Below are positions 18,922 to 46,575 of a stretch of 64,000 bases of DNA, in pieces. The translations under genes and the position numbers were made by a program. The notes below the pieces were generated by a model, which did not search any database, was not told where the DNA came from, and saw nothing but the letters and a program-made list of their open reading frames with translations. Within the stretch, counting starts at the first letter, position 1. Each line of letters begins with the position of its first letter. This DNA is from Saccharothrix saharensis (GTDB lineage: Bacteria; Actinomycetota; Actinomycetes; Mycobacteriales; Pseudonocardiaceae), in the NCBI RefSeq assembly GCF_006716745.1, contig NZ_VFPP01000001.1:2604001-2668000 (forward strand). Direction: 5' to 3'.

Positions 18922-19421
18922 CAGAGCAGGTCGCCGCGCTCGAAGCCGAGCAGCATGCGCTTGCGCTCGATGCCACCGCCGTACCCGGTCAGGCTGCCGG
19001 TCGAGCCGACCACCCGGTGGCACGGCACGATGATGCTGATCGGGTTCTTGCCGTTGGCCAGCCCGACCGCGCGGGACGCGGTGGGCCGGCCGATCCGGGC
19101 CGCCAGCTCGCCGTAGGACACCGTCTCACCGTGCGGGATCTCCTTGAGCGCGTCCCACACGGTCCGCTGGAACGGGGTGCCCGCCATCGACAGCGGCAGC
19201 TCGAACTCCGTCCGCTTGCCCGCGAAGTACTCCTCGAGCTGGGCGACGACCTCGTCGAACGGGGCCGCGTCGCGCTCGCCGAAGGTCTCCAGCGCGGGCC
19301 GGTGGCGGTGTTCGTGCATGTAGAGGCCGGCGAGCACGCCGTCGCGGGCGACGAGCGTGATCTCACCGACCGGGCTGTCGATCACCGTGTGCACGGCGAC
19401 TGGGGTTGGCATGCGCGTCAT
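18918..19421 (-). CDS. ogt: Methylated-DNA--[protein]-cysteine S-methyltransferase (O6-alkylguanine-DNA alkyltransferase)
   Basis: A protein of 167 aa. The N-terminal domain begins VIDSPVGEITLVARDGVLAGLYMHEH. The C-terminal active-site domain has GTPFQRTVWDALKEIPHGETVSYGELA and the acceptor motif IIVPCHRVVGSTG, with the suicidal Cys, then LTGYGGGIERKRMLL. It removes alkyl groups from O6-guanine. The ATG overlaps the ATP-grasp stop by 4 bp (ATGA), so it is co-translated inside a hydrazine biosynthesis operon. Because hydrazines and the diazo compounds formed from them alkylate guanine, I infer a self-resistance role. The alternative is a chance housekeeping ogt. Confidence 0.95.
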   Translation of the reverse strand: MTRMPTPVAVHTVIDSPVGEITLVARDGVLAGLYMHEHRHRPALETFGERDAAPFDEVVAQLEEYFAGKRTEFELPLSMAGTPFQRTVWDALKEIPHGETVSYGELAARIGRPTASRAVGLANGKNPISIIVPCHRVVGSTGSLTGYGGGIERKRMLLGFERGDLLW

Positions 19422-20668
19422 TCTGCCGCGCGCACCTCGATGCGGATCGCGTCGGCCGCCTTCTCCGCGAGCGCCAGCGCCTCGGCCGGGGTGTCCGCGA
19501 CGACCGTGACCGACCCGGCCCGGTCCCACGAGCTGCGCAGTTCCCGCACGGCCTCGCCCGGCGCGGCCATCACCGACGCGGCGAGCACGCCGGGCATGGC
19601 CTTGACCTCCTCCAGGCCCTCGACCGACACGACCTCGCCGGGCTCGGCCCGCAGGAAGCGCACGGACGCCGCCCGTTCGGCCCTGGCGGGCAGCGCGGGG
19701 TGCTCCTCGCCGCGCATGATCGAGTAGTAGCGCTCGGCCAGCGGGAACCCGTAGGCCTCGTCGATCAGCCACGTGATGCCGTCGCCGGGGAACCGGCCGG
19801 CGCACTCGACCAGGTGCGGCGTGCCGTCGGCGAGGATCCACTCGCAGTGCACGACGCCGGTGCCGAACCCGACCGCCCGCAGCACGGCCGCGGTGCGGTC
19901 GGCGAGCAGCGCGGCCGTGTCCTCGGGCAGGTCCGCGGGCACGAGGTGGCCCAGCTCGATCGGGCGCGGCCCGGGGAACAGCGTCTTGCCGGTGATGTTG
20001 GTGAACAGCGGCACGCCGTCGCGCACCAGCATCTCCACGCTGTACTCCTCGCCGCGGACGAACGTCTCGACCAGCATCCGCAGCGGGATCTCCCGGTCGG
20101 GCACGAGGATGCCCTCGTCCTGCCCGGCCAGGCACTCCTGCCACGCCTGGTCGACCTCGGCCGGGTCGTGCAGCACCTTCGTGCCCAGCGAGGCCTGCCG
20201 GTTCGCGGGCTTGAGCACGACCGGGCCGGGGTGGGCGGCCATGAACGCGCGCACCTCGTCCGGCGTGTCCACGGCCGTGGACACCGGGTTGTCGACGCCC
20301 GCGGCCCGGGTGACGCGCCGCAGCAGCTCCTTGTCGCGCAGCAGCTCGGCCGCGCCGCTGGTCGCCCCGGGCAGGCCGTAGCGCTCGGCGAGCCGGGCGG
20401 CGAACGGCGTGGCGTACTCCACCAGCGGCACCACGTAGGCCGGGTCCAGGTCGGGGTGGGTGTTGTAGAACTCGTCGGCCGCGCCGGGCAGCTGGTACTC
20501 CCACGGCACCAGCTCGCGCAGCGAGGCCGCGCCCGCCATCTTCGCCGCGATGTCCCGCTTGCGGATGACGTCGGGCTCGTCCACGAGGACCATCGAGCCG
20601 TCCTCGAACTCGGTGCGGGTGGGCAGCGGGGCCAGGAAGCCGACGATGATCACCGGTCGCGCGGTCAT
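19418..20668 (-). CDS. ATP-grasp carboxylate-amine ligase (ligase 1)
   Basis: A protein of 416 aa. A pre-ATP-grasp domain (~1-110) is followed by the ATP-grasp core, with LLRDKELLRRVTRAAGV, the ATP-binding strand GPVVLKPANRQASLGTKVL, EEYSVEMLVRDG, HCEWILADGTPHLVECAGRFPGDG (the usual Glu...Asn/Asp metal-site strand), and a C-terminal lid. Such enzymes join an acyl phosphate to an amine, making a peptide or amide bond without an NRPS. The start has GAGAGGAC five bases upstream. Because it follows hydrazine-forming genes, hydrazinoacetate or its amino-acid conjugate is a plausible substrate (inference). Confidence 0.92.
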   Translation of the reverse strand: MTARPVIIVGFLAPLPTRTEFEDGSMVLVDEPDVIRKRDIAAKMAGAASLRELVPWEYQLPGAADEFYNTHPDLDPAYVVPLVEYATPFAARLAERYGLPGATSGAAELLRDKELLRRVTRAAGVDNPVSTAVDTPDEVRAFMAAHPGPVVLKPANRQASLGTKVLHDPAEVDQAWQECLAGQDEGILVPDREIPLRMLVETFVRGEEYSVEMLVRDGVPLFTNITGKTLFPGPRPIELGHLVPADLPEDTAALLADRTAAVLRAVGFGTGVVHCEWILADGTPHLVECAGRFPGDGITWLIDEAYGFPLAERYYSIMRGEEHPALPARAERAASVRFLRAEPGEVVSVEGLEEVKAMPGVLAASVMAAPGEAVRELRSSWDRAGSVTVVADTPAEALALAEKAADAIRIEVRAAE

Positions 20669-20699: not shown

Positions 20700-21851
20700 C
20701 TAGCGGGTGATGCCGAGCGCGAGCGGGAAGGCGGGCGCGCCGCCGAGCAGGTGGGCGCCCGCGGTCTGCAGGATGCGGTCCTGCGCCACGATGTGCTGGC
20801 ACATGGTCGTGGTGTCGCGCAGCCACCTGTCAAGCGGCGAAGGTCGGTAGATCGACGCGGTCTGCATCAGGTCGTACAGCCTGGTGACGATCGACCGGGC
20901 GGTGCGGAACGCGTGCAGCCGGGACAGCGGGAGCGCGGCCCGCTCGCGCGGTGAGAGGTCGTCCAGCGTGCCACCCGCCGACAGCACGTCCCACTGCCGG
21001 CGCAGGCTCTCGTACACGCCGGCGCGGGTGGCGGTGAAGTCGGCCTCGCACTCGGCGAGCGTCACCTGGGTGCGGTAGTTGTCCGCCCAACCCTTGCCGG
21101 CGGCGGTGTCCCGGGCGAAGTCGAGGGCGGCGCGGGCCACGCCGAGCGGCACGCCCGGCATGTTGCGCATGTGCACCTCGGCCTGGGCCAGCGGGCCGGC
21201 GGGCCCGTGCACCTCGCTGAACAGCAGGGTGTGCTCGGCGGGCACGAACACGTCGGTGATCGTGTAGTCGCAGCTGCCGCTGCCCGCCAGCCCGGTGGTG
21301 TGCCAGGTGTCGACGACCTCGACCTGCTCGCGCGGCACCATCATCAGCATCGAGTTCTGCGGCACGCCGTCGGGCTCGCCGTCGCGGAACAGCATCGCGC
21401 CGGACACGACCCAGTCGGCGTGCGTGATGCCGCTGCCGAACTGCCAGCGGCCGGTCAGCCGGTAGCCGCCCGGCACGATCTCCGCCCGGCCGGTCGGGAA
21501 CAGCAGCCCGGCGGTGACCATGTCGATGCTCGGGAACATCTCCTTGGCCGCAGCCGGCTCCAGGAACCGGGCGTACAGGCCGGTGTCCATGCCGATCATG
21601 GCGCACCACCCGGCGGACGCGTCGCCGTAGGCCAGCTCCTCCACCACCCGCGTCTGCTGCTCGGAGGTCATCTCGGGGCCGCCCCAGTCGCGGCCGAAGC
21701 CCATCCGGAACACGCCCGCGGCGCGCAGCCGCGCCACGACGTCCTCGGGCAGGCGGCGCAGGCGTTCGATCTCCTCGGACCGCTCGCGCAGCCAAGGGGC
21801 CAGCTCCTGGGCGGCGGCGAGGATCTGCTCGCCGGTCTCGGGCACGGTCAT
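20700..21851 (-). CDS. Acyl-CoA-dehydrogenase-fold flavoprotein (HpaB/nitrososynthase-like monooxygenase)
   Basis: A protein of 383 aa with the three-domain acyl-CoA dehydrogenase fold: an N-terminal helical domain with VFRMGFGRDWGGPEMTSE, a mid beta-domain with YRLTGRWQFGSGITHADWVV, and a C-terminal helical bundle. There is no acyl-CoA catalytic Glu signature I can recognise. Members such as HpaB, DszC and the KijD3-type nitrososynthases use reduced flavin and O2 to hydroxylate aromatics or oxidise amine nitrogen. A dedicated flavin reductase lies immediately upstream and almost overlaps it, supporting a two-component monooxygenase. Oxidation of the hydrazine to a hydrazone, azo or diazo group is an attractive but unproven role. 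Confidence 0.88.
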   Translation of the reverse strand: MTVPETGEQILAAAQELAPWLRERSEEIERLRRLPEDVVARLRAAGVFRMGFGRDWGGPEMTSEQQTRVVEELAYGDASAGWCAMIGMDTGLYARFLEPAAAKEMFPSIDMVTAGLLFPTGRAEIVPGGYRLTGRWQFGSGITHADWVVSGAMLFRDGEPDGVPQNSMLMMVPREQVEVVDTWHTTGLAGSGSCDYTITDVFVPAEHTLLFSEVHGPAGPLAQAEVHMRNMPGVPLGVARAALDFARDTAAGKGWADNYRTQVTLAECEADFTATRAGVYESLRRQWDVLSAGGTLDDLSPRERAALPLSRLHAFRTARSIVTRLYDLMQTASIYRPSPLDRWLRDTTTMCQHIVAQDRILQTAGAHLLGGAPAFPLALGITR

Positions 21852-21856
21852 GGTGC

Positions 21857-22369
21857 TCACTCCTCGCCGTTCGGTGGGTCGGTGTCGTCCAACGTGCGGT
21901 AGCGACCGCGCAGGTAGAGCAGGGGCACGCGGGGGTCGCCCGCCGCGGCGGCCACCACCTCGCCGACGACCATCGTGTGGTCGCCGAGCTGGAAGGAGTC
22001 CCACAGCTCGCACTCCAACCAGCTCGGCGCGTCCAGCACGAGCGCGCCGGTGTGCCGCCCCGGTGACGCGGGCAGCGACGACAGGGCGCCGACCCGGCTC
22101 GCCCGGTCGCCCGAGCAGAGCCGGGCCGCGGCGGCGGCCGAGCCGTCCAGGATGGACAGCGCCCACTTCTTCGTGGTCAGCAGGTCGGCCAGGAAGCGGG
22201 ATTCCAGCTTGAGGCAGAGGGAGACCAACGGCGGGTCGAGGGAGACGGAGGTGACCGAGTTGACCGTCACCGCGTCGTGGTCCCGCCGGTCGCCGTGGTC
22301 GACGTAGGTGGTCGCGATGCACACGCCGGTCGCGAGGTTCCGCATGGCTCCGCGCAGGTCTGGTGGCAC
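21857..22369 (-). CDS. Flavin reductase (HpaC-like), partner of the adjacent monooxygenase
   Basis: A protein of 170 aa. An FMN-binding split barrel has LRGAMRNLATGVCIATT at the start, DAVTVNSVTSVSLDPPLVSLCLK as the flavin-binding strand-turn-helix, and FQLGDHTMVVGEVV near the C-terminus. It supplies reduced FMN or FAD to the monooxygenase encoded next, whose start is within a few bases of its stop. The GTG start has AGGAG six bases upstream and begins nine bases after the BBE-type oxidase gene. Members use NADH or NADPH; preference is not readable. Confidence 0.92.
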   Translation of the reverse strand: MPPDLRGAMRNLATGVCIATTYVDHGDRRDHDAVTVNSVTSVSLDPPLVSLCLKLESRFLADLLTTKKWALSILDGSAAAAARLCSGDRASRVGALSSLPASPGRHTGALVLDAPSWLECELWDSFQLGDHTMVVGEVVAAAAGDPRVPLLYLRGRYRTLDDTDPPNGEE

Positions 22370-22378: not shown

Positions 22379-23743
22379 CTAGATCGCCTGGGGGAAGCGG
22401 AAGACGCGGTCGGGGTCGTAGCGGCGCTTCACCTCGGCCAAGCGGGCGTAGTTCGGCCCGTGGTAGGCCGACTGCCAGTCGCCCAGGTCGGGGTCGGTGA
22501 AGTTGACGTACGCCGAGTCCGCGGCGAACTCCCCCATCCGCTCGTGCAGCGCGGTGAGCCAGTCGAGGTTGGCCCGCGCCACGGCCGGGCCGTCCTCGAC
22601 GTGCCAGGAGGTGTCCATCGAGATCAGGAACAGCACGTCGCGGTGCGGGAACGCGGTCTCGGTCACCGGCACGCGGTTGATCGCGCCGCCCCACGTGAAC
22701 AGGGCGACCCCCGCGCCGTCGGCGTTGCCGCTGCCCGGCCACGCGTCCACCGCGTCGATCATCGTGGCCACGCCCGCGTCCGGCAGCGGCTTGGACGTGG
22801 ACCGGGTGCGCACGGCGAACGCGCCGCCCTCGGTGTTGTGGTGCAGGTAGTCCTTGGCCTCCCAGTACGTCCGGTCGGCGATGTCGACCCGGAACGGCTC
22901 GGCGACCGCCAGCGCGGGCCGCAGCATCTCGCGCAGCTCCTCGGCCGGGCCGAGGTGCCAACCGACGACCGAGACGACGGCCTCCTCGTCGGCGGCGCGC
23001 GCGATGCCGATGCGGGCCGCGAACTCGTCCGGCGCGCGGTCCATGATCTCCTGCATGCACGCCAGCACTTCCCGTGCGTGCTTGCGGTGCCACAGCAGCA
23101 GGCACGTGGAGCTGGCCAGCACCGGCCGCGCCTGGAAGGTGAACGAGGTGTTGACGCCGAAGTTGCCGCCGCCACCGCCCCGGCACGCCCAGAACAGGTC
23201 GGCGTTGCTGGTCTCGTTGCACGTGACCGTGGTGCCGTCGGCCAGCACCACGTCGGTCTCCACCAGCGAGTCGCAGGTCAGGCCGAACGACCGGGACACG
23301 GCCGCGACACCGCCGCCCAGCACCAGCCCACCGATGGCCACGTCGTCCGCGTTGCCCGCCGGGAAAGCCAGGTCGTACGGCTCCAGCCCGGCGTACAGGG
23401 TGGACATCCGGGTGCCGCCGCCGACCGTCACCAGCTCGCTGGACCGGTCCACCCGCACCTGGTCCAGCCCGCGCAGGTCCAGCACCAGGCCGGTGTTCAC
23501 CGAGTTGCCCGCGTAGCTGTGCCCGCCGCCCCGCGCCACGATCGGCACGTCGTTGCCGCGCGCCCACACGATCGCCTTGCCCACGTCGTCCGCACTGGCC
23601 ACGGACAGCACGGCGGACGGGCGGACGTCGGCGTACCGCTTGTTGAACGGGCGGCTCGCGGCGTCGAAGCCGGGGTCGCCCGGCAGCCGCACGTAGCCGT
23701 CGACGAGGTTCGCGAGCTTCGAGAAGTCGACCGATCCGCCCAC
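22379..23743 (-). CDS. FAD-linked oxidase of the berberine-bridge-enzyme (BBE/PCMH) type
   Basis: A protein of 454 aa. The FAD domain (~35-205) has VPIVARGGGHSYAGNS with the histidine for 8-alpha-N1-histidyl FAD, DLRGLDQVRVDRSS, and FWACRGGGGGNFGVNTSF. The C-terminal BBE motif is YARLAEVKRRYDPDRVFRFPQ. The usual second FAD link is a Cys in a PGGSC-type motif; here that stretch reads PAGNADDVAIGG, so only single covalent attachment is expected. BBE-like enzymes oxidise alcohols, amines or C-C/C-N bonds with O2. In this operon the substrate may be a hydrazine or its conjugate. GAGGAGG precedes the GTG start. Confidence 0.93.
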   Translation of the reverse strand: MGGSVDFSKLANLVDGYVRLPGDPGFDAASRPFNKRYADVRPSAVLSVASADDVGKAIVWARGNDVPIVARGGGHSYAGNSVNTGLVLDLRGLDQVRVDRSSELVTVGGGTRMSTLYAGLEPYDLAFPAGNADDVAIGGLVLGGGVAAVSRSFGLTCDSLVETDVVLADGTTVTCNETSNADLFWACRGGGGGNFGVNTSFTFQARPVLASSTCLLLWHRKHAREVLACMQEIMDRAPDEFAARIGIARAADEEAVVSVVGWHLGPAEELREMLRPALAVAEPFRVDIADRTYWEAKDYLHHNTEGGAFAVRTRSTSKPLPDAGVATMIDAVDAWPGSGNADGAGVALFTWGGAINRVPVTETAFPHRDVLFLISMDTSWHVEDGPAVARANLDWLTALHERMGEFAADSAYVNFTDPDLGDWQSAYHGPNYARLAEVKRRYDPDRVFRFPQAI

Positions 23744-23744: not shown

Positions 23745-24071
23745 TCAGCGCACCTCCTCGAGGTAGGAGACGCCGGTCGCGGCGTGCTCGCCGTAGCGCT
23801 GCCACTCCTCGCGCAGCACCAGGCGGCCGTCGGGCTCCTGGCGCGGCACGTTGACCGTGTGGCCCGCGATGACCTCGCCGGTGATCAGCACCATCGTGTA
23901 GGCCAGCCGGATCGTGCCGTCCGGGCCGCACGTGCCGGTGACCGTGCCGCGGCGCACCTTGCCGCCGGTGAAGTCGGCCCACACCAGGTCGCCGTCCTGG
24001 TGGTAGCGGGCCTCGGTGCCGTCGCCGCCGCCCGCCTTGCGGAACCGCCGCCCGTCGTAGTTGATCGTCAT
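23745..24071 (-). CDS. Small lipocalin-like protein (often mis-annotated as N-acetylglutamate synthase)
   Basis: A protein of 108 aa, almost all beta-strand: YDGRRFRKAGGGDGTEARYHQDGDLVWADFTGG, KVRRGTVTGTCGPDGTIRL and EEWQRYGEHAATGVSYLEEV. I recognise the family from actinobacterial genomes, where it is commonly labelled n-acetylglutamate synthase without any acyltransferase motif. A ligand-binding barrel is more likely. The ATG overlaps the second ATP-grasp stop by 4 bp, and the BBE-type oxidase starts one base after its own stop. Strict coupling suggests it serves the pathway, perhaps as a carrier or cyclase, but nothing shows how. Confidence 0.75.
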   Translation of the reverse strand: MTINYDGRRFRKAGGGDGTEARYHQDGDLVWADFTGGKVRRGTVTGTCGPDGTIRLAYTMVLITGEVIAGHTVNVPRQEPDGRLVLREEWQRYGEHAATGVSYLEEVR

Positions 24072-25390
24072 TCGTCCACGTCCAGGAGTCCGGTGGGCAT
24101 TTCCAGGGTCGCGCCGGGTGGCAGCGGGTCGATCCGCTCGGCGTCCAGCTCGACCAGCGCCTGCGCCGCCACGAGCCGGTCGCGGCAGGTGTCGGCGTCG
24201 TCGGCCGCGCACACCACGAACGAGTGGCGCGCGATGTAGCCGCCGGGGGGCAGCCGCAGGCTCGCGCCGGGGTCGACCATCGGCGCGGCGGTGACCAGGC
24301 CGGGCGCCTCGGCGGGCACGGTCACCGACCGCACCACGCAGTCGTGGTCGGGGTAGCCGAAGCGGATGCCCGCCACCGAGCGCTTCGTCGCGGCCACCTC
24401 GGGCCGCCGGCCGGTGGCGACGTCGAACAGCACCTCGCCGGGGTCGATGCCGGTGGCGGTCTTGCCGAGGAACGGGATCAGGTCGCCGCCGAGCCTGCCG
24501 TTGATCTCGATGATCACCGGGCCGCGGTCGGTCAGCCGCACCTCGGCGTGCGTGATGCCGTCCTCGACGCCGAGCACGCGGTGCGCCCGCGCCAGCGTGT
24601 CCATCAGCTCTTCGTCGCGCAGCAGCGGGTCGTCCGCGTCCACGACGTGGCCGACCTCCTCGAAGTACGGCGGCATGCCGGTCTGCTTGCGGGCCAGGAA
24701 CAGCGGCTGGTACTCGCCCTTGTGCAGCGCGCCGTCCACGCTGATCTCCGGGCCGTCGGCGTAGCCCTCCACGATCGCGCCGCCGCGGTAGGGCTCGTCG
24801 CCGATCAGGCTGGCGTCCGAGGCGACCCGGAACGCCGCGTCCAGCTCGCTCTCGTCGGCGGCGAGCACCACGCCCATGCTCGCGCCCAACGCCCGCGGCT
24901 TCACCACGACCGGGTAACCGATGCGCGCGGCGGCGGCACGGGCCTCCTCCACCGTCGCGGTCATCTCACAGCCTGGCTGCGGCAGGCCGGCGGCGGTGAG
25001 CAGGGACCGCGTGTGGTACTTGTCCCGGCAACCGTCCACACCGGACACGCTCAGCCCCGGCACGCCGAACTCGGCGGCGATGTGCGCCGACGGCATGACG
25101 AACGGCTCGTCCCAGCACATCACGCCGACGATGCGCCGCCGTGACGCGACCTCGCGGGCGGTCTCGGCCAGCAGCTCGTGGTCGAACAGGTTGATCACGG
25201 AGATCTCGTCGAAGTACGCCCGCTGCCAGGTCGGCTGGATGTTGTTGACCAGCACCAGGTCCAGCCCGGCATCCCGCGCCCGGCCCGCGATCGAACTCAC
25301 CAGGTACTCGCGGTACAGCTTCAACCCGCTGCCGATCACCAGCACGGCGTCGGTCGTCCGATTGTCGGCTCCGCCGACGATACCGCTCAT
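24068..25390 (-). CDS. ATP-grasp carboxylate-amine ligase (ligase 2)
   Basis: A protein of 440 aa with the ATP-grasp domain order of carbamoyl-phosphate-synthase-like ligases: DKYHTRSLLTAAGLPQP, GYPVVVKPRALGASMGVVLA (ATP-binding lysine strand), GPEISVDGALHKGEYQPLFLA, HAEVRLTDRGPVIIEINGRLGGDLIP (metal-binding Glu/Asn), then a C-terminal SAICAR-synthetase-like segment. It activates a carboxylate as acyl phosphate and couples it to an amine. The ATG overlaps the DAO-like stop. Sited directly after the three hydrazine-forming steps, it is the best candidate for the first conjugation of hydrazinoacetate with an amino acid (inference). Confidence 0.93.
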   Translation of the reverse strand: MSGIVGGADNRTTDAVLVIGSGLKLYREYLVSSIAGRARDAGLDLVLVNNIQPTWQRAYFDEISVINLFDHELLAETAREVASRRRIVGVMCWDEPFVMPSAHIAAEFGVPGLSVSGVDGCRDKYHTRSLLTAAGLPQPGCEMTATVEEARAAAARIGYPVVVKPRALGASMGVVLAADESELDAAFRVASDASLIGDEPYRGGAIVEGYADGPEISVDGALHKGEYQPLFLARKQTGMPPYFEEVGHVVDADDPLLRDEELMDTLARAHRVLGVEDGITHAEVRLTDRGPVIIEINGRLGGDLIPFLGKTATGIDPGEVLFDVATGRRPEVAATKRSVAGIRFGYPDHDCVVRSVTVPAEAPGLVTAAPMVDPGASLRLPPGGYIARHSFVVCAADDADTCRDRLVAAQALVELDAERIDPLPPGATLEMPTGLLDVDE

Positions 25391-26418
25391 GTCCCTACCT
25401 CCTCGGCGATCCGCTCGGCGACGACGGGCGCGGTGCGGAACCCGTCCCCGCCGCTGGCCGCGCGTGCCCACGTTGACGGTCCGATCCGGACCACTTCACC
25501 ACCGCCGGTCACCGGGTCGACCGCGTAGTGGCACGTCCTGCTCCCGGTGACGGTGTAGCGCTCCCAGTCGGCCAGCACCGACGACAGCGCCAACCGGCCG
25601 GTCCACGCCTCCGCGTCCTCCCCCACCGCCTCCACCTCGCGGCACAGGGTCGCGGAACTGATCTTGAGCTGCGTCCCGTCACCGGGCGGCCACAGCCACG
25701 CCCGACCGTCGTCCCCGATGCGACCGGCACTCGGCGCGCCCTCCCACCAGTGCGCCAGGTCGTCAGGTGGCCGCAGGTAGACGGTGACCTGCCGGTGCAG
25801 CACCGTCGGCACGTCCACCAACCCGCCCGACCACGGCCCGGCGGCCACGACCACCGCGTCGCCCCGCACGGTCAGCCCGTCGGCGGTCACCACGGCGGCC
25901 GCGTCCACGTCGACCTCCCGCACCGCGCACCCCGGTCGCAGCACCACCAGCGGCTGCTCGCGCAGCCACCGCACGGCGGCGTCGAGCACGCGGTCGGCCA
26001 GCAGCACGCCGGCGTCGACCTCCAGCAGCCCGGCGGACCCGGCGGGGAAGCGCAGGTGCGGGTACTTCTCCGGGGCCACCGCGGAGACCGGCACGCCGGC
26101 CTCCGCCGCGACCTCCAGCGCCGCGCCCACCGCGTCGGCGGGCCACCCGGTGACCACGCCGACGCGCCGGTAGAACCGCTTGCCCAGCAACGACTCCAGC
26201 TCCAGCCACCGCCGGTGCAGCACCGCCGAGGCACGGGTGGCGGCCACGTCACCCGGGTCGAGCGCGCGGATCGCCCGGTGCTCGTCGTGCGACGTGGCGG
26301 CCGGGTTCGGCACGGGGCCGGAGTCGAGCACGGTGACGCGCAGCCCGGCGCGCGCGCACCGGACCGCGGTGAGCAGCCCGGTGACGCCCGCGCCCACGAC
26401 GACCACGTGCCGACCCAT
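25387..26418 (-). CDS. FAD-dependent oxidoreductase, glycine/D-amino-acid-oxidase family
   Basis: A protein of 343 aa. It has the N-terminal Rossmann FAD motif VVVVGAGVTGLLTAVRCARAGLRVTVLD, VVVAAGPWSGGLV mid-chain, and the DAO-type C-terminal FAD contact SGGDGFRTAPVVAERIAEE. DAO enzymes dehydrogenate the C-N bond of amino acids. In the described hydrazine pathway a FAD enzyme of this class cleaves N6-(carboxymethylamino)lysine to release hydrazinoacetate and 2-aminoadipate semialdehyde. This gene sits exactly where that step is needed, one base downstream of the MetRS-like ligase and overlapping the next ATP-grasp gene. Assignment rests on family and context. Confidence 0.9.
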   Translation of the reverse strand: MGRHVVVVGAGVTGLLTAVRCARAGLRVTVLDSGPVPNPAATSHDEHRAIRALDPGDVAATRASAVLHRRWLELESLLGKRFYRRVGVVTGWPADAVGAALEVAAEAGVPVSAVAPEKYPHLRFPAGSAGLLEVDAGVLLADRVLDAAVRWLREQPLVVLRPGCAVREVDVDAAAVVTADGLTVRGDAVVVAAGPWSGGLVDVPTVLHRQVTVYLRPPDDLAHWWEGAPSAGRIGDDGRAWLWPPGDGTQLKISSATLCREVEAVGEDAEAWTGRLALSSVLADWERYTVTGSRTCHYAVDPVTGGGEVVRIGPSTWARAASGGDGFRTAPVVAERIAEEVGT

Positions 26419-26419
26419 C

Positions 26420-27961
26420 TCAGACCACCCCGGCCGACAGCCTCGGCAGCGCCCGGGGCGTGATCTCGGTGGTCGACGGCACGGCCGGGATGTCCGTGTC
26501 CGGCAACGCCTGCGCCGCCAGGTCCACCAGGATCGGCGCGGCGCAGCGCAGGAACACGTCCAGCTCGTGCCAGAAGTCGCCCGCGTCGGCCTCGGCGACC
26601 TCCCACCGCGACAGCCGGCCCAGCTGCTCGGCCACCAGCTCGGCCGCGCGGCTGAGGCTGAAGTGGCGCAGCTCGTAGGCCGCCGCGAAGCGCGCCACCA
26701 CCCGTGCCGCGACCGACCGGGACCGGTCCGACACCGGCAGCGGCCCTTGGCCGACCCACCGCCGCGCCTTGTCCACCACCGCGTTCCACGGCTCCACGAG
26801 CCGGGTTCGGGTGATGGTCTCCAACCCGTCGTGGGTGTAATTGGTGCGCTGGTGCTCCGGGCTGGTCGTGGCCAGGTGGAACCGGATCAGGTCGCGCGGC
26901 ACCCGCCCGGCCAGGTCCCGGCCCTGCACCACGTGGCCCCGGCTGGTGGAGAACTTCTCGTTCTCCAGCTCGTAGAACTCGTTGGTGACGAACCGGTGGG
27001 GCAGCGCGTAGCGGTCGCCGTGCGCCATCAGCATGGCCAGGCCCGCGACGGCGAACGGGAACGTGTTGTCGAACCCGAGGAAGTACACCACCTCCGAGCC
27101 CGCGCCCGCCTTCCACAGCTCGTCCTCCGCGCCGAGCGACACGCCCCGCGCCTCGGCCGCCAGCGCGGCGCAGTGCATGCTCCACGCCTGCGTCTCGGCG
27201 TTCGGGTTGATCACCTGCCCCGGCGTCTCGGCGAACGGGGCCGGGATGCCCCACGAGACCGGGTGCGTGATCGGGAAGTCGGGCAGCGGCCGGGACAGCA
27301 GCTCCTCGACGAGCTGCGCCATGTGCGGGCGCATCGAGTCGGCGTGCCGGGCGAAGTGCTCCCGCAGCCGCGGCCGGAACTCCTCCAGCGGCAGCACGAG
27401 GACGTCGGCCTCGCGCAGCTCCACCGGCTCCTCGGGGCGCAGCGTGGCGCGCGGGTTGACCAGGTCGCCCGGCGCCACCGGGTGACCGCAGCTCTCGCAC
27501 AGCCCGGCGCACCCGTCGGCCAGGCACAGCGGGCACCCGCCGCGCACGTACCCGTCCACCAGGAACTCGCCGGTGCGGGACAGGTACGGCAGCTTCACCG
27601 TCCGCAGCCGCAGGCGCCCGGTGGCGTGCAGCTGCTCCATGAAGCCCTCGACCCACTTGGTGAACCGGCTGTCGAACCCGGTGAACCCGTCGACGTCGAC
27701 GCCCACCGCCGCCAGGGTCGCCTCGATCTCGGCGGCCGACCGCTCGGCCAGCTCGCGCGGCCCGAGCCCGAGCCGGTGCGCCGTGGTCACGACGTAGGTG
27801 GGCGTGTCCTGCGCGCCCGTGCCGAACACCGCGTCGCGGCCCACCGCGCGGGCGTAGCGGGTGTGCACGTCGGCGGCGAGGAACGGACCGGCCAGGTGGC
27901 CGAGGTGGAGGTCGCCGTTGGCCGTGGGCGCGGGCGACACCACCACCACGCGGCCGGTCAC
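26420..27961 (-). CDS. Methionyl-tRNA-synthetase-like N-N bond-forming ligase
   Basis: A protein of 513 aa. A class I synthetase fold retains HLGH (HIGH-type signature, residue ~19), a zinc knuckle of four Cys between residues ~140 and 160 (CPLC...CESC), YFLGFDNTFPFAVAG, and KFSTSRG in place of KMSKS. A shortened helical C-terminal domain replaces a normal anticodon-binding region. Described relatives (MetRS domain of Spb40) use ATP to activate glycine and, with a cupin, join it to N6-hydroxylysine through an N-N bond. The GTG start overlaps the cupin stop by 4 bp. A housekeeping MetRS is excluded by context and by the changed motifs. Confidence 0.9.
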   Translation of the reverse strand: MTGRVVVVSPAPTANGDLHLGHLAGPFLAADVHTRYARAVGRDAVFGTGAQDTPTYVVTTAHRLGLGPRELAERSAAEIEATLAAVGVDVDGFTGFDSRFTKWVEGFMEQLHATGRLRLRTVKLPYLSRTGEFLVDGYVRGGCPLCLADGCAGLCESCGHPVAPGDLVNPRATLRPEEPVELREADVLVLPLEEFRPRLREHFARHADSMRPHMAQLVEELLSRPLPDFPITHPVSWGIPAPFAETPGQVINPNAETQAWSMHCAALAAEARGVSLGAEDELWKAGAGSEVVYFLGFDNTFPFAVAGLAMLMAHGDRYALPHRFVTNEFYELENEKFSTSRGHVVQGRDLAGRVPRDLIRFHLATTSPEHQRTNYTHDGLETITRTRLVEPWNAVVDKARRWVGQGPLPVSDRSRSVAARVVARFAAAYELRHFSLSRAAELVAEQLGRLSRWEVAEADAGDFWHELDVFLRCAAPILVDLAAQALPDTDIPAVPSTTEITPRALPRLSAGVV

Positions 27962-28329
27962 CGCTTCTTCTCCTCGTGGCGGGCCACGAAGGCCGCGGAC
28001 ATGTCGGTGTCCCACCAGATCGCGTAGTACTCGAAGTCGGCGTCGTGCTCGTTGAGCACCTGGTGGGTCGTGCCCGGGATCAGGTGCGCGATGTCGCCCT
28101 CGACCAGCTCGCGCCGCTCGTCCTCGACGACCAGCGTGGCGCGGCCCTTCATCGCGATGAAGATCTCGTACTCGTGGTGGGAGTGCGCGGTGGACACGTC
28201 GCCCGGCCGCACGACGCACCAGGCGCCCTCGAACGGCGCGTTGAGCACGTCCCACGGCAGCAACCGCTCGGAGTCCAGGCCGTAGGCGCGGGTCAGGTTC
28301 TCCCGGTCCAGCCTGCGGATCTCGATCAT
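27958..28329 (-). CDS. Cupin, N-N bond-forming partner of the MetRS-like ligase
   Basis: A protein of 123 aa forming a single cupin beta-barrel. Motif 1 is VSTAHSHHEYEIFIAMKG (His, His and Glu metal ligands) and motif 2 is GDIAHLIPGTTHQVLN (His ligand). Cupin domains in hydrazine synthetases rearrange the O-glycyl ester of N6-hydroxylysine so that glycine nitrogen bonds to lysine N6. In the system I remember best the cupin and MetRS domains form one chain; here they are separate genes in the same order, joined by a 4-bp overlap. The ATG also overlaps the lysine hydroxylase stop. Confidence 0.92.
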   Translation of the reverse strand: MIEIRRLDRENLTRAYGLDSERLLPWDVLNAPFEGAWCVVRPGDVSTAHSHHEYEIFIAMKGRATLVVEDERRELVEGDIAHLIPGTTHQVLNEHDADFEYYAIWWDTDMSAAFVARHEEKKR

Positions 28330-29603
28330 GCCCCCGCCACCTCCACCGCGCGCCGGTCGAGCAGGTCGCCGACGATGTCGCCGGACCGGTGCGCGAGCAC
28401 GCTGATCAGCGAGTCGGCGATGCCGTGCGTCTCCTCGTTGACGCCCTGCAGGTACAGCGCGCCCCAGGCGGACTCGCCCAGGTCGACCCGGTAGCGGCGG
28501 CTGACCGCGACGTCCTCGACGCCCGTGCGGGCGACCAGGTCGCGCACCAGCTTCGGCATCCGCGGCTCGTAGCCGGTGCCGAGCAGCACGACGTCGCAGT
28601 GCAGCGGCTCGACCTTGCCGCTCTTGCGGTCGCGCACGTCCAGGACCACCTCGTCGTGCTCGACCCTCGCCCGCACGACCTCCGTCATCGAGCGGACGGT
28701 CGAGCGCGGCTTGCCCAGCATCTTCTGCTGGTAGAGCATCGAGTACGTCTCGTCCAGGAACGGCGGCGCGAGACCCGCGTAGTTGGTCAGGTGCACCTCG
28801 TCGAGGATCTGCGCGCGCACTTCCGGCGCGCAGTCGTAGAACTCGTCCACGAAGGACGGGAAGAACAGCTCGTTGACGAACTTGCTGGTCTGGTAGTTCT
28901 GGAAGCCGATCGAGCGCAGCACGATCGTCGGCTCGCACTTGGGCAGGTCGTGGTGCAGCGCCATGAACATCTCGGCCGCGCTCTGCGCACCGCCGATCAC
29001 CACGGCCCGCAGCGGCTTGTCGGCGTCGAGCTGCGCGACCCGCGTGCAGTACTGGGTGCTGTGGATGACCCGGTCCGCGGGCAGCTCGCCGAACACCTCC
29101 GGCACGCGCGGGTCGCGGCCGATGCCGACGACGAGGTCGCGGGAGCGCACGGTGTCGCCGCCCGCCAGCGTCACGACCCAGCCCCGGATCGAGCCGTCGT
29201 CGCCGCGCCACGGGTCGATGCGCTCGCCCCGCGCGCCGTAGCGGACTCCCACCTGCTCGAGGGAGTTCGCGACCCACTGCATGTACTCCGACAGCTCCCA
29301 CCGGTACGGGTTGAACGTGCTCAGGTTGACGAACTCGTCCAACCGGCCGGTGGTGTGCAGGAAGTTCAGGAAGGAGAACCGGCTGCGCGGGTTGCGCAGG
29401 GTCACCAGGTCCTTGAGGAACGAGACCTGGCTGCGCGCCCACGGCAGCAGCAGGTTGCGCTGCCACTTGATGTCCGGGTGCTGCTCCAGCAGCAGCGTGT
29501 TCTCGGCGAGGCCGGGCACCCCCGACTCCTCGATGGCCGCCGCGAGGGCCAGGTTCGCCGGGCCGGCACCGATCGCCAGCACGTCCACCTCTTGGTCTGT
29601 CAC
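28326..29603 (-). CDS. L-lysine N6-monooxygenase (N-hydroxylase)
   Basis: A protein of 425 aa. A flavin N-monooxygenase of the IucD/SidA class has the FAD motif DVLAIGAGPANLALAAAIEE, the NADPH motif AVVIGGAQSAAEMF and the C-terminal LGTGYEPRMP signature. SFLKDLVTLRNPRSRFSFLNFL is the substrate loop typical of lysine/ornithine hydroxylases. It would make N6-hydroxylysine, the first committed substrate of the hydrazine route. I chose the GTG at 29603, which has GGGGTGGG upstream. It is the first gene of the 12-gene - strand operon; no siderophore synthetase lies nearby, so the product is not used for a siderophore here. Confidence 0.93.
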   Translation of the reverse strand: MTDQEVDVLAIGAGPANLALAAAIEESGVPGLAENTLLLEQHPDIKWQRNLLLPWARSQVSFLKDLVTLRNPRSRFSFLNFLHTTGRLDEFVNLSTFNPYRWELSEYMQWVANSLEQVGVRYGARGERIDPWRGDDGSIRGWVVTLAGGDTVRSRDLVVGIGRDPRVPEVFGELPADRVIHSTQYCTRVAQLDADKPLRAVVIGGAQSAAEMFMALHHDLPKCEPTIVLRSIGFQNYQTSKFVNELFFPSFVDEFYDCAPEVRAQILDEVHLTNYAGLAPPFLDETYSMLYQQKMLGKPRSTVRSMTEVVRARVEHDEVVLDVRDRKSGKVEPLHCDVVLLGTGYEPRMPKLVRDLVARTGVEDVAVSRRYRVDLGESAWGALYLQGVNEETHGIADSLISVLAHRSGDIVGDLLDRRAVEVAGA

Positions 29604-29789: not shown

Positions 29790-31136
29790 TCAAGCCGACG
29801 GGACGGTTGATCGGTAGTGCCGGCCGGCCGTGACAATCAATTCCTGGCGGGCCGGGCGGCGCACCGCGTGGCCGGTGCCGCGCAGGTCGAGCACGAACGC
29901 GCGGGCCAGCGGGTCGAGCCGGTACGCGCCCGGTCTGCCCGCGCCGCGCAGCAGGCCCGCGTCCGCCAGCTCGTACACCGGCTCGTCGTCGGTGAACGCG
30001 CCGAGCAGCACGGGCTCGTCCACGGGCTGGTGCGCCACCTGGTGCAGCACCGCCTTGGCCGCTTCGCCGAGCCCGAGGTAGGTGGACTGGTAGGAGTCCC
30101 GGACCGACAGGTCGCCGACGCGCAGCCAGTCCAGCAGCGCGCCCGGCTCGGTCAGCCGCGCCAGCACCCGGCTGACCGGGACGTCCGGCCTCGCCGCGAG
30201 CCTGCGCGCGGCGATGTCCAGCGCGAGCGGCAGGTCGCCGCACAGCCGGGCCAGCCGGTCGCAGTCCTGCGGCTCGGCCGCGACCGGGTCCGGCACGGCG
30301 CCCGACAGCATGGCGATGGCCTCCACCCGCGGCGGCACGGCCAACCGCAGCCTGCGCACGTCGCGCAGGCCGAGCAGCGGCGTCCGGCCGACGATGATCG
30401 TGCGGCTGTGCGGGCTCTCCACCAGCAGCGGCCGGACCTGCCGCTCGTCGCGGACGTTGTCCAGCAGCACGACGAGCCGGCGTTCGGCGATCAACGACCG
30501 GTACAGGCACGCCTGCTGGTCGACGGTGTCGGGCAGGTGCTCGACGGGCACGCCGAGCGCGCGCAGGAACCCCTCCAGCACGGTCCGCGCACCGCGCTCG
30601 CCCGGCTCCAGCGGCCCGAGGTCGACGTAGAGCCGGCCGTCCACCGCGGCGGCGGCCAGCTGGTGGGCGTGGTGCAGCGCCAGGTCGGTCTTGCCGACGC
30701 CGGCCGGCCCGCTGATCACCACCGGGGTGGCCGGGTCGGTGGCGAGCAGGCGCAGTTCCCCGGTCCGGCCGACGAAACCGCGCGGCCTCATCGGCAGCTG
30801 CGCCGGGCGCGGGAAGCACGAGCGCGCGGCGACCGGTTCCGGGCGGCTCGACGTGCCGCCCGCCTCGGGGTCCAGCCCGCTGGAGACCTCCAGCCACCGC
30901 CGCCGCCACTGCTCCCGGTCGCCACCGCACGCGGCCACGAACGCCAGCGTCACCTGCAACGTCGGCATCCGGTGGCCGCTGGCCGCGCTGGACAGCACCG
31001 ACGAGGAGTACAGGGCCGCCCGGCCCATGTCCCGGTACGTGGGGTTGCCCGCCCGAGCGCGCAGTCGTCTCAATTCGCTCGCGAAGGTCGCGACCGCGCC
31101 GGACGAGACGTCGACAGGTTTTTCCGGTCTACCCAT
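29790..31136 (-). CDS. XRE-NB-ARC (AfsR/STAND-type) transcriptional regulator
   Basis: About 448 aa from the ATG at 31136 (31172 is also possible). An N-terminal helix-turn-helix (FASELRRLRARAGNPTYRDMGRA...SVLSSAASGHRMPTLQVTLAFV) is followed by an NB-ARC ATPase with Walker A ISGPAGVGKTDLALHHAHQL, Walker B RLVVLLDNVRDE, and the GDLPLALDIAARRL helix. It ends after the winged-helix region and lacks the TPR tail of full-length AfsR-like proteins. Such regulators switch on antibiotic clusters. It lies directly upstream of and co-oriented with the hydrazine operon, so I infer it is the pathway-specific activator. Confidence 0.9.
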   Translation of the reverse strand: MGRPEKPVDVSSGAVATFASELRRLRARAGNPTYRDMGRAALYSSSVLSSAASGHRMPTLQVTLAFVAACGGDREQWRRRWLEVSSGLDPEAGGTSSRPEPVAARSCFPRPAQLPMRPRGFVGRTGELRLLATDPATPVVISGPAGVGKTDLALHHAHQLAAAAVDGRLYVDLGPLEPGERGARTVLEGFLRALGVPVEHLPDTVDQQACLYRSLIAERRLVVLLDNVRDERQVRPLLVESPHSRTIIVGRTPLLGLRDVRRLRLAVPPRVEAIAMLSGAVPDPVAAEPQDCDRLARLCGDLPLALDIAARRLAARPDVPVSRVLARLTEPGALLDWLRVGDLSVRDSYQSTYLGLGEAAKAVLHQVAHQPVDEPVLLGAFTDDEPVYELADAGLLRGAGRPGAYRLDPLARAFVLDLRGTGHAVRRPARQELIVTAGRHYRSTVPSA

Positions 31137-31364
31137 CCCCAGCGGATCCCTTTCTCTCCATGTGCGGGCCAAGCATGAATAAGGGGCCGACTCCCCGCTA
31201 CCGCCGATCGGAGGACCATAGGATTTGAATATGACGGCAAACCGAGGGTCCGTAACGTTTAGCCGGGGACGTATTTGTGACCGAACGTCGCGACACGTGC
31301 GCGGCGCGTTGCGTCCGTATTATCGGCGACCCGGAAAATGCCCGGAAAAGAGCCTCGCGCCGAA

Positions 31365-31420: not shown

Positions 31421-32644
31421 TCACACGGTGGTCTTGTTCTCCCGCATGCCCACCATGGCGAACCAGCCGCCGAGGAGCCCGAGCGCACCGCACAGCAGCC
31501 ACACGCCGTTGCCGAACGCGCCCCAGGCCAGCACGCCGAGCGTCGGTCCGAGCGCCGAGCCGAGGCCGAACGTGGCCTGGTGCGTGCCGACGTACCGGCC
31601 GCGCACCGAGGCGGGGAACTTCGCCGGGTGCGCGAACATCGTGGGCCCGCTGATCATCACGCCGAGCACGAACACCGCCGTGCTGACCACGATCACGACC
31701 GCGTGCGAGCCGAGCCCGTAGCCGGCCGCGCCCAGGCCCATCACCGCCGTGCCGACCGCGCCCGCCGCCCACGGCACCCAGTTCTTCACGTACGAGGTGA
31801 TCTTCAGCTCGGACACGACCAGGATGATCGACGCCGTGGTGAGCACGATGCTGTAGAGCGCCGCCGGGTGACCCTCGCTGGTGATCTTCAACGGCAGCGC
31901 GACCACGTACTGCACGTAGATGAGCGTGCCGAGCAGCACCGAGGCGAGGAACGCCAGGTACCGGCCGTCGCGCAGCATCACCGCGTACGCCGACCGCTTC
32001 TGCTCGCCCGACTCGGCTTCGTCCTCGTCGTCGCGCGGCGCGTCGGTGGCGGGCAGCGTCAGCCGCGCCACGACCGCGTAGGCCAGCGCCGACACCGCGT
32101 CGAAGTAGAACAGCAGGTCCCAGTCGAGCAGGATCAGGCCGGCCGCGATGAGCGGCGCGAGGGCCGCGCCGCCGTTGAGCGCGATGCGCATCATGGAGAA
32201 CGCCATGACCCGGTGCTCGGCCGGCATCAGCTCGCTGAGCAGCACGGCCGCCGCGGGCCGGTAGCACTGGGTGGCCAGGCCCGCCGCGCCGATGGCGACC
32301 AGCAGCCCGCCGAACAGGCCCGGCGTGCTGAGCGTCGGCATGACCGCCAGCACCGCCGCCGACGCCGTCATGGCGCCGACGATCGTGGCGCGCGGCCCGA
32401 GCCGGTGCACCAGTTCCCCGCCGAGCAGCGTGCCGAGCACCGCGCCCGCGCTGTAGCACGTGAGCGCGACACCGGCCTGGCCGATGGAGAAGTGGCGCAC
32501 GGTCAGGTACAGCACCAGGAACGTCTGCGCGAACGCGCCCAGCTGGTTGATCAGCACGCCACCGAGCAGGTAGCGGACCGGCTTGGGCGTGGCGCGGACG
32601 CTCGCGAAGACGCCGCCCGGTGCACCCGCTTCCTTCGTGGTCAC
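31421..32644 (-). CDS. MFS transporter (12-TM type)
   Basis: A protein of 407 aa with helices throughout: LGGVLINQLGAFAQTFLVLYL, SIGQAGVALTCYSAGAVLGTLLGGELVHRLGPRATI (the helix 2-3 motif), and a charged central loop (DAPRDDEDEAESGEQKRSA) splitting it into two six-helix halves. It resembles MDR-type drug efflux proteins. The GTG start encodes MTTKEAG. Placed beside the NB-ARC regulator and hydrazine operon and bounded by its own terminator, it is a good candidate exporter of the pathway product (inference from position). Confidence 0.92.
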   Translation of the reverse strand: MTTKEAGAPGGVFASVRATPKPVRYLLGGVLINQLGAFAQTFLVLYLTVRHFSIGQAGVALTCYSAGAVLGTLLGGELVHRLGPRATIVGAMTASAAVLAVMPTLSTPGLFGGLLVAIGAAGLATQCYRPAAAVLLSELMPAEHRVMAFSMMRIALNGGAALAPLIAAGLILLDWDLLFYFDAVSALAYAVVARLTLPATDAPRDDEDEAESGEQKRSAYAVMLRDGRYLAFLASVLLGTLIYVQYVVALPLKITSEGHPAALYSIVLTTASIILVVSELKITSYVKNWVPWAAGAVGTAVMGLGAAGYGLGSHAVVIVVSTAVFVLGVMISGPTMFAHPAKFPASVRGRYVGTHQATFGLGSALGPTLGVLAWGAFGNGVWLLCGALGLLGGWFAMVGMRENKTTV

Positions 32645-32778: not shown

Positions 32779-33606
32779 TCAGCGCGCGAACACACCGTTG
32801 ACGGCGCCGAAGTCCAGCGCGCCGTCGAGCTCGGTGTAGGTGCCCTTGGTCAGGGCCTCCTCGGTGGCGCGGTGCGCGACGGAGTACGCGGCCTGGGTGA
32901 CCGCGGTGCCGAGGCTGACCCGCCGGACGCCGACGGCCTCGAACTCGGCCACGGTCGGCGCGCCGGGGCCCGCCATCACGTTGACCGGCAGCGGCGAGGC
33001 CTCGACCAGCGTCTTCAGCACGTCCAGGTCGACCAGGCCGGGCACGAACAGCACATCGGCGCCCGCTTCGGCGTAGACCGCCGCACGGGCCAGCACGTCG
33101 TCCAGCCGACCCTCGGGCTCGCCGACCTGGAAGAGGAACACGTCGGTGCGGATGTTGACCACCAGTTCGGGCAGCCCGGCCCGCTGCGCCGCCTCCCGCG
33201 CCGCCCGCAGGCGCGCGGCCTGCTCCTCGGCGGTGAACAGCGGCACCCCGAAACCCTTGGAGTCCTCGATGTTCACGCCGACGGCGCCCGCGCCGATCAC
33301 GGCCTCGACGGTCGCCGCGACGTCCTCAGGGGCGTGGCCGTAGCCGCCCTCGACGTCGGCGGTCACGGGCACGTCCACGGCGGCGGCGATCAGGCGCACC
33401 TGCTCGACCATCTCGTCGCGGGACAGGCTCTGCCCGTCGGGCCGCCCGAGCGCCCACGACACGCCGCCGCTGGTGGTGGCGACGGCCTTCGCCCCGGCGC
33501 GGGCGATCATGGCGGCGCTGCCCGCGTCCCAGGCGTTCGGGAGCACCAGCACCCCGTCCGCGTGGAGGCCGCGCAGTAAGTCCGCCTTGGGCTTGTTGCT
33601 GTGCAT
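32779..33606 (-). CDS. Isocitrate lyase/PEP-mutase superfamily protein
   Basis: A protein of 275 aa with the (beta/alpha)8 fold of the ICL/PEPM superfamily: LVLPNAWDAGSAAMIARAGAKAVATTSGG, PVTADVEGGYG, GAVGVNIEDSKG and a C-terminal VRRVSLGTAVTQAAY. The metal site acids (Asp in ADVEGG, Glu in NIEDS) are present. The PEP-mutase EDKxxxxxNS motif is not, so a lyase or oxaloacetate-type hydrolase is likelier than phosphonate formation. Codon 10 is a rare TTA (33577-33579), linking expression to the UUA tRNA. Ribosome-binding site GAAAGGTGAC. No partner gene suggests its substrate. Confidence 0.88.
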   Translation of the reverse strand: MHSNKPKADLLRGLHADGVLVLPNAWDAGSAAMIARAGAKAVATTSGGVSWALGRPDGQSLSRDEMVEQVRLIAAAVDVPVTADVEGGYGHAPEDVAATVEAVIGAGAVGVNIEDSKGFGVPLFTAEEQAARLRAAREAAQRAGLPELVVNIRTDVFLFQVGEPEGRLDDVLARAAVYAEAGADVLFVPGLVDLDVLKTLVEASPLPVNVMAGPGAPTVAEFEAVGVRRVSLGTAVTQAAYSVAHRATEEALTKGTYTELDGALDFGAVNGVFAR

Positions 33607-34094
33607 GGAGATGTCACCTTTCCGATGACCGCGACTGGGTGGGGCGGCGCATCGTAACAGCGCCAGGCGACGGTCGAGGTGGACTTCCAAGCCCTGTAAC
33701 GGGTTGACGCCCGCGGCCGACAGTGCCGGGTGGGCGCACGCCCGTGATCCGGACGTCCGCGACGGCGGCCGTGGTGAGCGGCGGGAACCACGCGGAGCTG
33801 GGCGACGACCGGAGCCCGGCGCAGGTCCGGTACGACGGAGGACGCCTCGGTCCACCTGACCTGCGGCGACCCGCGGCTGGCCGACGAGCACGGCGCGGAG
33901 GCCGGGTGTCCGCGTCGTCTGCGACGCCAACCCGGCCTCCGCCGACTACCACCGGCGCGACGTCGACCGGCCGGCCCGCTCCCCGCGGCAGCAGGGCGGA
34001 ACCGCGCCGGGCGAGGTCCGGCAGGTGGCCGCGAACCTCGCCACCGACCGACGCCGACGCGCTCGGCGTCGTCACGCGCCCCGGGTCGCCTTCC
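33607..34094. other. Gene-poor stretch, possibly decayed coding sequence
   Basis: These 488 bases hold no gene I can support. Short oppositely framed fragments on the + strand (for example VRVVCDANPASADYHRRDV around 33900-33960) look protein-like but are interrupted in every frame. The region includes the promoter of the PEP-mutase-family gene at its left end. Interpretation as an old pseudogene is weak. Confidence 0.4.
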
Positions 34095-46574: not shown

Positions 46575-46575
46575 G

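Follow-up and report, generated by a model that had tools for sequence, protein, structure and literature searches.

What would a bacterium make with a ten-gene operon in which a core for joining two nitrogen atoms is followed by ligases and flavoenzymes? Such an operon lies in Saccharothrix saharensis, in a stretch of 64,000 nucleotides (the window) that covers positions 2604001-2668000 of the 8.92 Mb single-contig genome. Nitrogen-nitrogen (N-N) bonds are rare in biology, and reactive metabolites, azaserine and the triacsins among them, depend on such bonds; with four N-N core genes and six tailoring genes, the operon is a small set that can be put to the test. We consider it reasonably probable that the operon makes a small N-N-bonded, peptide-like metabolite without a nonribosomal peptide synthetase (NRPS) or carrier protein, by the steps proposed below, and the product is probably other than ordinary hydrazinoacetic acid. 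What is new here is most likely the joining of a split hydrazine synthetase, with a re-shaped amino-acid pocket, to an NRPS-free, carrier-free tailoring set.

The ten genes run head to tail on the minus strand from 29603 to 19418, with no internal stops and gaps of at most 31 bp. They encode, in order, an N-hydroxylating monooxygenase, a cupin, a methionyl-tRNA synthetase (MetRS)-like protein, a DAO-family oxidase, ATP-grasp ligase 1, a 108-aa protein, a berberine-bridge-type oxidase (BBE), a flavin reductase, an acyl-CoA-dehydrogenase-like monooxygenase and ATP-grasp ligase 2 (Table 1). The first four (29603-25387) are coupled by junctions of -4, -4 and +1 bp, as described in an earlier interpretation made from the DNA letters alone (the sequence-only reading); the remaining junctions are -4, -4, +1, +9, +5 and +31 bp. 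Because of this tight spacing, we infer that the ten genes would form a single transcript. The monooxygenase, MetRS-like and DAO frames passed a codon-position G+C filter; the cupin frame is unlisted there and was called from its Pfam match and conservation. The same genes recur in the same order in other genomes, and thus the four-gene arrangement is not due to chance. The downstream partners named in the sequence-only reading (two ATP-grasp ligases, a BBE-type oxidase and an acyl-CoA-dehydrogenase-like protein) are all present, together with the 108-aa gene and the flavin reductase gene, which it had omitted.

The core is well supported, by homology, as a split MetRS/cupin hydrazine synthetase, and in this the earlier proposal of an N-N synthetase was upheld. 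For the published systems we draw, here and below, on excerpts of the papers cited by PMC number. In this known family, MetRS-like domains join an amino acid to an N-hydroxy amino acid and Zn cupins rearrange the ester to form the N-N bond; the two halves can be separate proteins (PMC8664883). Gene context had led to a prediction of the family in 2010, when ATP-grasp genes were noted in several of the neighbourhoods (PMC2922099). Hence there is nothing new in the N-N core itself, since the published biochemistry and the 2010 prediction already cover it.

The MetRS-like protein carries HLGH at residue 19, a Cys-rich knuckle (CPLC..CESC) from residue 143 and KFSTS at residue 336; Pfam and motif positions bear out these features, as they do the single-domain cupin and the DAO-family flavoprotein. 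Its identity to the probable housekeeping MetRS of the genome is 30%, as against 62-91% for the best 120 of its 1228 matches, which we use below as its close relatives. In a tree with the probable housekeeping MetRS as outgroup, it groups with the hydrazine-synthetase-type rows. On these grounds of identity and tree position we rejected a housekeeping role, and the suggested check on whether its closest homologues are housekeeping enzymes came out negative. From sequence, the protein is predicted to be the amino-acid-activating half of the synthetase.

The cupin is predicted to be the Zn rearrangement half. Aligned with RHS1 of Rhodococcus jostii, it shows putative ligands H49-x-H51-x3-E55 and H89 at the spacing of the published RHS1 ligands (D63, H65, E69 and H103); the first position is His in the window cupin and Asp in RHS1, and the invariant Glu is kept. 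We located RHS1 in an R. jostii plasmid locus (L083), where D63, H65 and E69 fall at their published numbers in the translation. The hydroxylase gene overlaps the cupin gene by 4 bp, and the N-hydroxylase partner is thus directly adjacent. PDB matches of the cupin were 4rd7, 4mv2 and 5uqp, the last being RHS1. Two were nearer to the window cupin than RHS1 (E 4.6e-8): 4rd7, a conserved-barrel protein (E 7.5e-40), and 4mv2/4q29, plu4264 (E 6.4e-33); these are possibly N-N-forming cupins as well.

Which amino acid would this synthetase activate? We compared eleven positions of the MetRS methionine pocket, placed by what we take to be the E. coli MetRS numbering (Asp52, Trp253 and the rest). The window protein reads PATQNTQSDNF and the probable housekeeping enzyme AWYDWAVYDNH: in place of the Asp and Trp found in MetRS and in the fused glycine-type synthetases, the window protein has Gln51 and Asn254. 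The altered pocket, absent from the housekeeping enzyme, is common to the 120 close relatives, in which the Asp position is Gln (99) or His (21) and never Asp, and the Trp position is Asn (97), Asp (20), Phe (2) or His (1) and never Trp. In contrast, a control set of the best 120 of 1247 matches to the fused cupin-MetRS protein of locus L085 keeps Asp in 120/120 and Trp in 119/120, and 105 of the 120 have the string TPTDWMSFDNH. Among the matches listed, this set includes proteins with that string from two species of known pathways. One is Glycomyces harbinensis, the source of the azaserine synthetase AzaE/Aza12 (PMC11705231); the other is Nocardia tenerifensis, in which a dob cluster is found, the DobE enzyme of this pathway having been shown to use glycine (PMC13061610). 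Organism, size and domains suggest that the two entries are those enzymes. A further locus, L076, has the azaserine-cluster gene order, compared with a table in PMC10445470, and the same Asp and Trp residues. The window protein thus lacks the glycine-type pocket of a hydrazinoacetate (Spb38-40 type) pathway, and glycine in the usual mode is, judged by these residues, unlikely to be its substrate.

Related clusters occur in Saccharothrix, Streptomyces (including S. scabiei 87.22 and S. ipomoeae) and Kitasatospora. We examined 54 loci chosen by MetRS similarity, 35 with a MetRS of >=56% identity and 19 others; each reaches about 9-10 kb to either side of the MetRS gene, so that the absence of a gene from a locus is not proof of its absence. 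In a tree of the 54 MetRS rows with the pocket columns removed, the window falls within a 34-row clade (SH-aLRT 99). The adjoining 11-row clade (SH-aLRT 88) keeps Asp and Trp and holds the genome's second paralogue and plasmid operons of Pantoea, Klebsiella and Deinococcus. The tree was a quick search: support is weak at 15 of 51 inner branches, and R. jostii and the housekeeping enzyme sit on long branches.

Gene content separates the two groups of loci. The 35 have the N-hydroxylase (35), DAO (35), ATP-grasp 1 (33), acyl-CoA-dehydrogenase-like protein (32), ATP-grasp 2 (29), MFS protein (28), 108-aa protein (26), regulator (13) and PEP-mutase-like protein (11); the other 19 have no acyl-CoA-dehydrogenase-like protein or flavin reductase, one BBE, three DAOs of the window type, the 108-aa protein in four, ATP-grasp 1 in ten and ATP-grasp 2 in six. 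Pocket type also tracks gene content. Gln/Asn occurs in 13 loci, 12 of which have the flavin reductase, as against none of the other 41; these 13 also carry the regulator (12), the PEP-mutase-like gene (11) and the MFS gene (6). His with Asp (11) or His (9) occurs in 20 loci, none of them with a flavin reductase; L014 and L015 were not scored. Gln is paired with Asn, and His with Asp or His; from this co-variation, two or more substrate specificities are predicted within one clade. Across genomes, a MetRS match at E 1e-60 or better was present in 56/297 of the family and one at E 1e-50 in 2/396 of the phylum, the source genome included in each; both counts are lower bounds, since 3-5 candidates were scored per genome. 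Among the papers that our literature searches listed, we saw no description of a cluster with the operon's gene set; a relative may already have been assayed.

Two further features of the relatives deserve mention. In those from Streptomyces, the flavin monooxygenase and ATP-grasp 2 are separated by a protein that weakly matches the dimethylargininase family (17373-18215 in L008), and several have a second copy upstream. The related clusters L077 and L078 carry a methylaspartate (glutamate) mutase E gene (a Pfam match in L077, the same sequence cluster in L078), a hint that methylaspartate may be a building block there.

The monooxygenase, judged by its sequence relatives, probably N-hydroxylates ornithine or lysine on the side-chain amine. 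It had been called an IucD-class lysine hydroxylase: the family assignment holds, and lysine is one of two candidate substrates, the nearest solved relative and best PDB sequence match being the L-ornithine 5-monooxygenase 3s5w (275.6 bits; presumably PvdA), followed by the lysine enzyme MbtG (232.8). At four positions that we take to be SidA/PvdA substrate positions it has K64, N244, N274 and S398. This K-N-N-S pattern, which PvdA also has, is shared by 47 of 55 aligned hydroxylases, the window's included; K-N-S is found in R. jostii, L076, L085 and L086, the four loci that we took as lysine-pathway references.

The DAO is nearest to sarcosine oxidases by sequence, with NikD lower in the PDB match list, and keeps Cys296, as do 37 of 38 aligned DAOs counting the window's. 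Its predicted role is to break one of the two C-N bonds in the hydrazine intermediate. Since Apy10 and Spb39 cleave opposite bonds (PMC11705231), membership of the DAO family does not fix the side cut here. It is possible, if rather unlikely, that the enzyme acts like Apy10 on the other C-N bond, so that the diamino acid would keep the N-amino group (for example, as N5-aminoornithine) and serve the ATP-grasp ligases in that form. This would fit the two amino-acid ligases that follow and the remoteness of the window DAO from the one fused-type DAO compared, that of L085, with which it gave no significant BLASTP match, both being Pfam DAO proteins; the sarcosine-oxidase-like relatives, however, are not diagnostic of the side cut.

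What would the remaining six genes add? Both ATP-grasp proteins resemble L-amino-acid ligases. The acyl-CoA-dehydrogenase-like protein matches Rv3094c in the PDB (E 1.5e-55) and the HsaA model (E 5.3e-44, under that model's cut-off); the flavin reductase is its probable partner, and this monooxygenase may oxidise the hydrazine or a carbon. In the BBE, the His75 position, which we take to be flavin-linking, is His in 25/25 aligned proteins, the window's included. The 108-aa protein matched nothing in NCBIfam or in the Pfam scan, whose library lacked PF26421; its structure model predicts an avidin-fold beta barrel, and a search with Foldseek alone returned nothing at E <=0.001. Such a fold match says nothing on function. 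Relatives of this protein were found in 16/396 phylum genomes, the source genome included, and are 32-42% identical outside it. Just one of those other genomes also had a MetRS match, 1.6 Mb from the 108-aa relative, so the wider family is not confined to clusters of this kind. Present in most of the clusters related to the window's, the predicted avidin-fold protein is a new candidate component. Together, the ATP-grasp pair, the BBE-type oxidase, the flavin reductase/monooxygenase and the avidin-fold protein suggest a hydrazino-peptide made without an NRPS.

From the observed gene identities, operon layout, conservation and altered pocket, we propose the following pathway, in which the first three steps and the general role of the DAO are carried over by analogy from published relatives. 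The monooxygenase would hydroxylate the side-chain amine of ornithine or lysine. The MetRS-like protein would adenylate a further amino acid, probably one other than glycine, and esterify it to the hydroxylamine, and the Zn cupin would rearrange the ester to a hydrazine. The DAO would then oxidise one C-N bond and free a hydrazino acid. The substrates and the later steps we infer: the two ATP-grasp ligases may attach amino acids to the hydrazino acid, the BBE-type oxidase and the flavin monooxygenase/reductase may oxidise the hydrazine unit (to a hydrazone, an azo/azoxy group or a ring), the avidin-fold protein may have a ligand-binding or cyclising role, and the MFS protein may export the product. 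A more specific suggestion, which we make tentatively, is that the operon is one of an uncharacterised clade of N-N metabolite clusters, whose split synthetase has a re-shaped pocket and accepts an amino acid of non-glycine type. The hydrazine would then follow a carrier-free route, by way of two ATP-grasp ligases, a BBE-type oxidase, a two-component flavin monooxygenase and the avidin-fold protein, and end up as a new oxidised N-N group or ring within a di- or tripeptide.

The sequence-only reading had instead proposed that N6-hydroxylysine is joined to glycine and that cleavage by a Spb39-like DAO gives hydrazinoacetate, to which the new tailoring steps would be added. The enzyme families are the same as in the s56-p1, triacsin and azaserine pathways (PMC11705231), and several characterised members take glycine. 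Nevertheless, we regard this route as improbable. The window's Gln/Asn pocket differs from the near-invariant Asp/Trp and predominant string of the fused set, the hydroxylase has the K-N-N-S pattern, and the DAO has no significant BLASTP match to the one fused-type DAO compared. Moreover, AMP-binding, carrier-protein, GNAT and C45-peptidase models had no Pfam match at E 1e-3 among the ten operon proteins; for want of GNAT, acyl-ligase, carrier-protein and C45-peptidase matches, we rejected an azaserine/triacsin-type cluster. That no N-N bond is made at all, the MetRS paralogue serving as a peptide ligase for a modified dipeptide as in the 2010 gene-context proposal (PMC2922099), is very improbable: two further ligases in the operon would suit it, but members of the family, among them stand-alone pairs, were later shown by biochemistry to form N-N bonds (PMC8664883), and the cupin ligand spacing is kept.

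Several observations weigh against our preferred pathway of a non-glycine N-N peptide. RHS, the Glu-using synthetase of R. jostii, has also lost Asp and Trp, as Ala/Ala, with an Arg elsewhere in the pocket. Conversely, Asp and Trp are not proof of glycine, because 18/19 loci outside the window's clade keep both, mostly with no substrate assigned. Pocket residues by themselves do not name the amino acid used; both 120-protein sets consist of close relatives, and glycine use is established for few fused members. By alignment, the lysine enzyme MbtG also has K-N-N, so these positions leave ornithine and lysine unsettled. Finally, within range of the clade loci, the cupin is found in 27/35, the BBE in 23/35 and the flavin reductase in 12/35.

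How does the operon compare with known systems? R. jostii RHA1 likewise has a separate cupin (RHS1, 5UQP) and MetRS-like protein near an N-hydroxylase, with the same ligand spacing, the loss of pocket Asp and Trp, and one weak ATP-grasp match in the locus. In contrast to the window, its MetRS is 29% identical to the window's, the pocket has Ala/Ala/Arg rather than Gln/Asn/Phe, a saccharopine-dehydrogenase gene accompanies (PMC8664883), and the locus has no DAO match. The azaserine, triacsin and dob systems (AzsN, Tri28, DobE) share an N-hydroxylase, a DAO-type oxidase and cupin plus MetRS-like chemistry; unlike the window, they use a fused enzyme, glycine and a downstream succinylation and carrier-protein route (PMC10445470, PMC13061610), genes for which are lacking in the window operon. 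Actinopyridazinone (Apy9/Apy10/Apy11), compared by its description in PMC11705231, offers a hydrazine synthetase with a non-lysine hydroxylamine and a non-glycine amino acid, using diaminobutyric acid (DABA) and Ala; its flavin oxidase Apy10 cuts the other side than Spb39. Kit1-Kit2 of Kitasatospora gansuensis, which other workers have assayed, appears as a hydrazine synthetase pair in Table 2 of PMC11705231 and may lie close to the clade of the window's MetRS-like protein. A split cupin and MetRS-like protein are also combined with an N-hydroxylase at the second paralogue of the genome (8.69 Mb) and in plasmid operons of Pantoea, Klebsiella and Deinococcus. An ATP-grasp gene is seen in each of these loci except that of Klebsiella, where the record stops; they differ in a MetRS 41-48% identical to the window's, in keeping Asp and Trp, and in having no flavin-monooxygenase match within range.

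Some of these loci are of interest in themselves. The genome's second split hydrazine-synthetase cluster (L049, 8679500-8699400) has a MetRS 45-46% identical, ATP-grasp genes, a 108-aa relative and a KS-III-like protein. On enterobacterial plasmids of Pantoea agglomerans (L079), P. ananatis (L080) and Klebsiella variicola (L087), split hydrazine-synthetase genes lie near a NIPSNAP family gene, and both Pantoea operons additionally have FAD-oxidoreductase, MFS, ATP-grasp and GNAT genes. We considered whether the Pantoea operon is Pantoea natural product 3 (PNP-3), both being of about 8 genes and 8.5 kb, and found no support: the excerpts of PMC7744662 and PMC11350110 name no such genes. The PNP-3 passage, a nucleotide-identity survey and hence weak on this point, names P. 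agglomerans, P. vagans and Pantoea spp. and not the operon carrier P. ananatis. The L085 plasmid locus (Streptomyces sp. SAT1, 1818-10632) encodes, besides its fused glycine-type synthetase, an N-hydroxylase, a DAO, an annotated lysine 2,3-aminomutase, an S-adenosylmethionine (SAM) methyltransferase and a PGM1-type ligase; this content could suit a negamycin-like product, whose structure we take to be a beta-lysyl methylhydrazinoacetate.

Table 1. Genes of the ten-gene unit and its upstream neighbours (window coordinates).
Feature	Coordinates	Strand	Details
N-hydroxylating monooxygenase (SidA/IucD/PvdA family)	28326..29603	-	GTG start, 425 aa; Pfam Lys_Orn_oxgnase 7.2e-86
Stand-alone cupin	27958..28329	-	123 aa; Cupin_2 3.5e-13
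Stand-alone MetRS-like protein	26420..27961	-	GTG start, 513 aa; tRNA-synt_1g 4.1e-60
DAO-family flavin oxidase, sarcosine-oxidase/NikD-like	25387..26418	-	343 aa; Pfam DAO 1.2e-23
ATP-grasp ligase 1 (BacD/L-amino-acid-ligase-like)	24068..25390	-	ATP-grasp_4 4.3e-19; PDB 3vot, BacD
108-aa protein	23745..24071	-	Precomputed Pfam id PF26421; predicted avidin-fold beta barrel
Berberine-bridge-type FAD oxidase (BBE)	22379..23743	-	FAD_binding_4 1.5e-29, BBE 3.7e-19
Flavin reductase	21857..22369	-	Flavin_Reduct 1.9e-32
Acyl-CoA-dehydrogenase-like, HsaA/Rv3094c-type flavin monooxygenase	20700..21851	-	Acyl-CoA_dh_2 2.5e-16
ATP-grasp ligase 2, L-amino-acid-ligase C-terminal domain	19418..20668	-	LAL_C2 4.3e-25, ATP-grasp_4 1.1e-16 (longer frame 19418-20833 scanned); PDB 3vot
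Possible cluster regulator	29790..31172	-	HTH_31 26.6 bits, AAA_22 21.2 bits, both under Pfam cut-off
MFS exporter	31421..32644	-	MFS_1 5.5e-36
PEP-mutase/isocitrate-lyase family protein, start inferred	32779..33627	-	PEP_mutase 1e-78 (longer frame 32779-33930 scanned)

The regulator candidate, MFS and PEP-mutase-like genes all lie upstream of the ten-gene unit. The PEP-mutase/isocitrate-lyase family gene possibly serves precursor supply; the azaserine cluster also has an isocitrate-lyase gene, azsC (PMC10445470). We considered a phosphonate enzyme and set this aside, no other phosphonate gene having been noticed among the scanned proteins. About 1 kb past the operon end is a DDE-type transposase gene (17133-18386). 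Elsewhere in the window, 44675-60757 encodes a class-II DAHP synthase, an isochorismatase, a chorismate-binding/GATase protein, an AMP-binding/carrier/reductase protein, a SAM synthetase, a methyltransferase and a flavin reductase, a set resembling what we take to be a dihydro-hydroxyanthranilate-type cluster. The AMP-binding/carrier/reductase gene, 20 kb from the operon, sits among other genes. We take the 44.7-60.8 kb set to be a different cluster, since in the relatives the operon starts near the PEP-mutase-like gene and stops at ATP-grasp 2.

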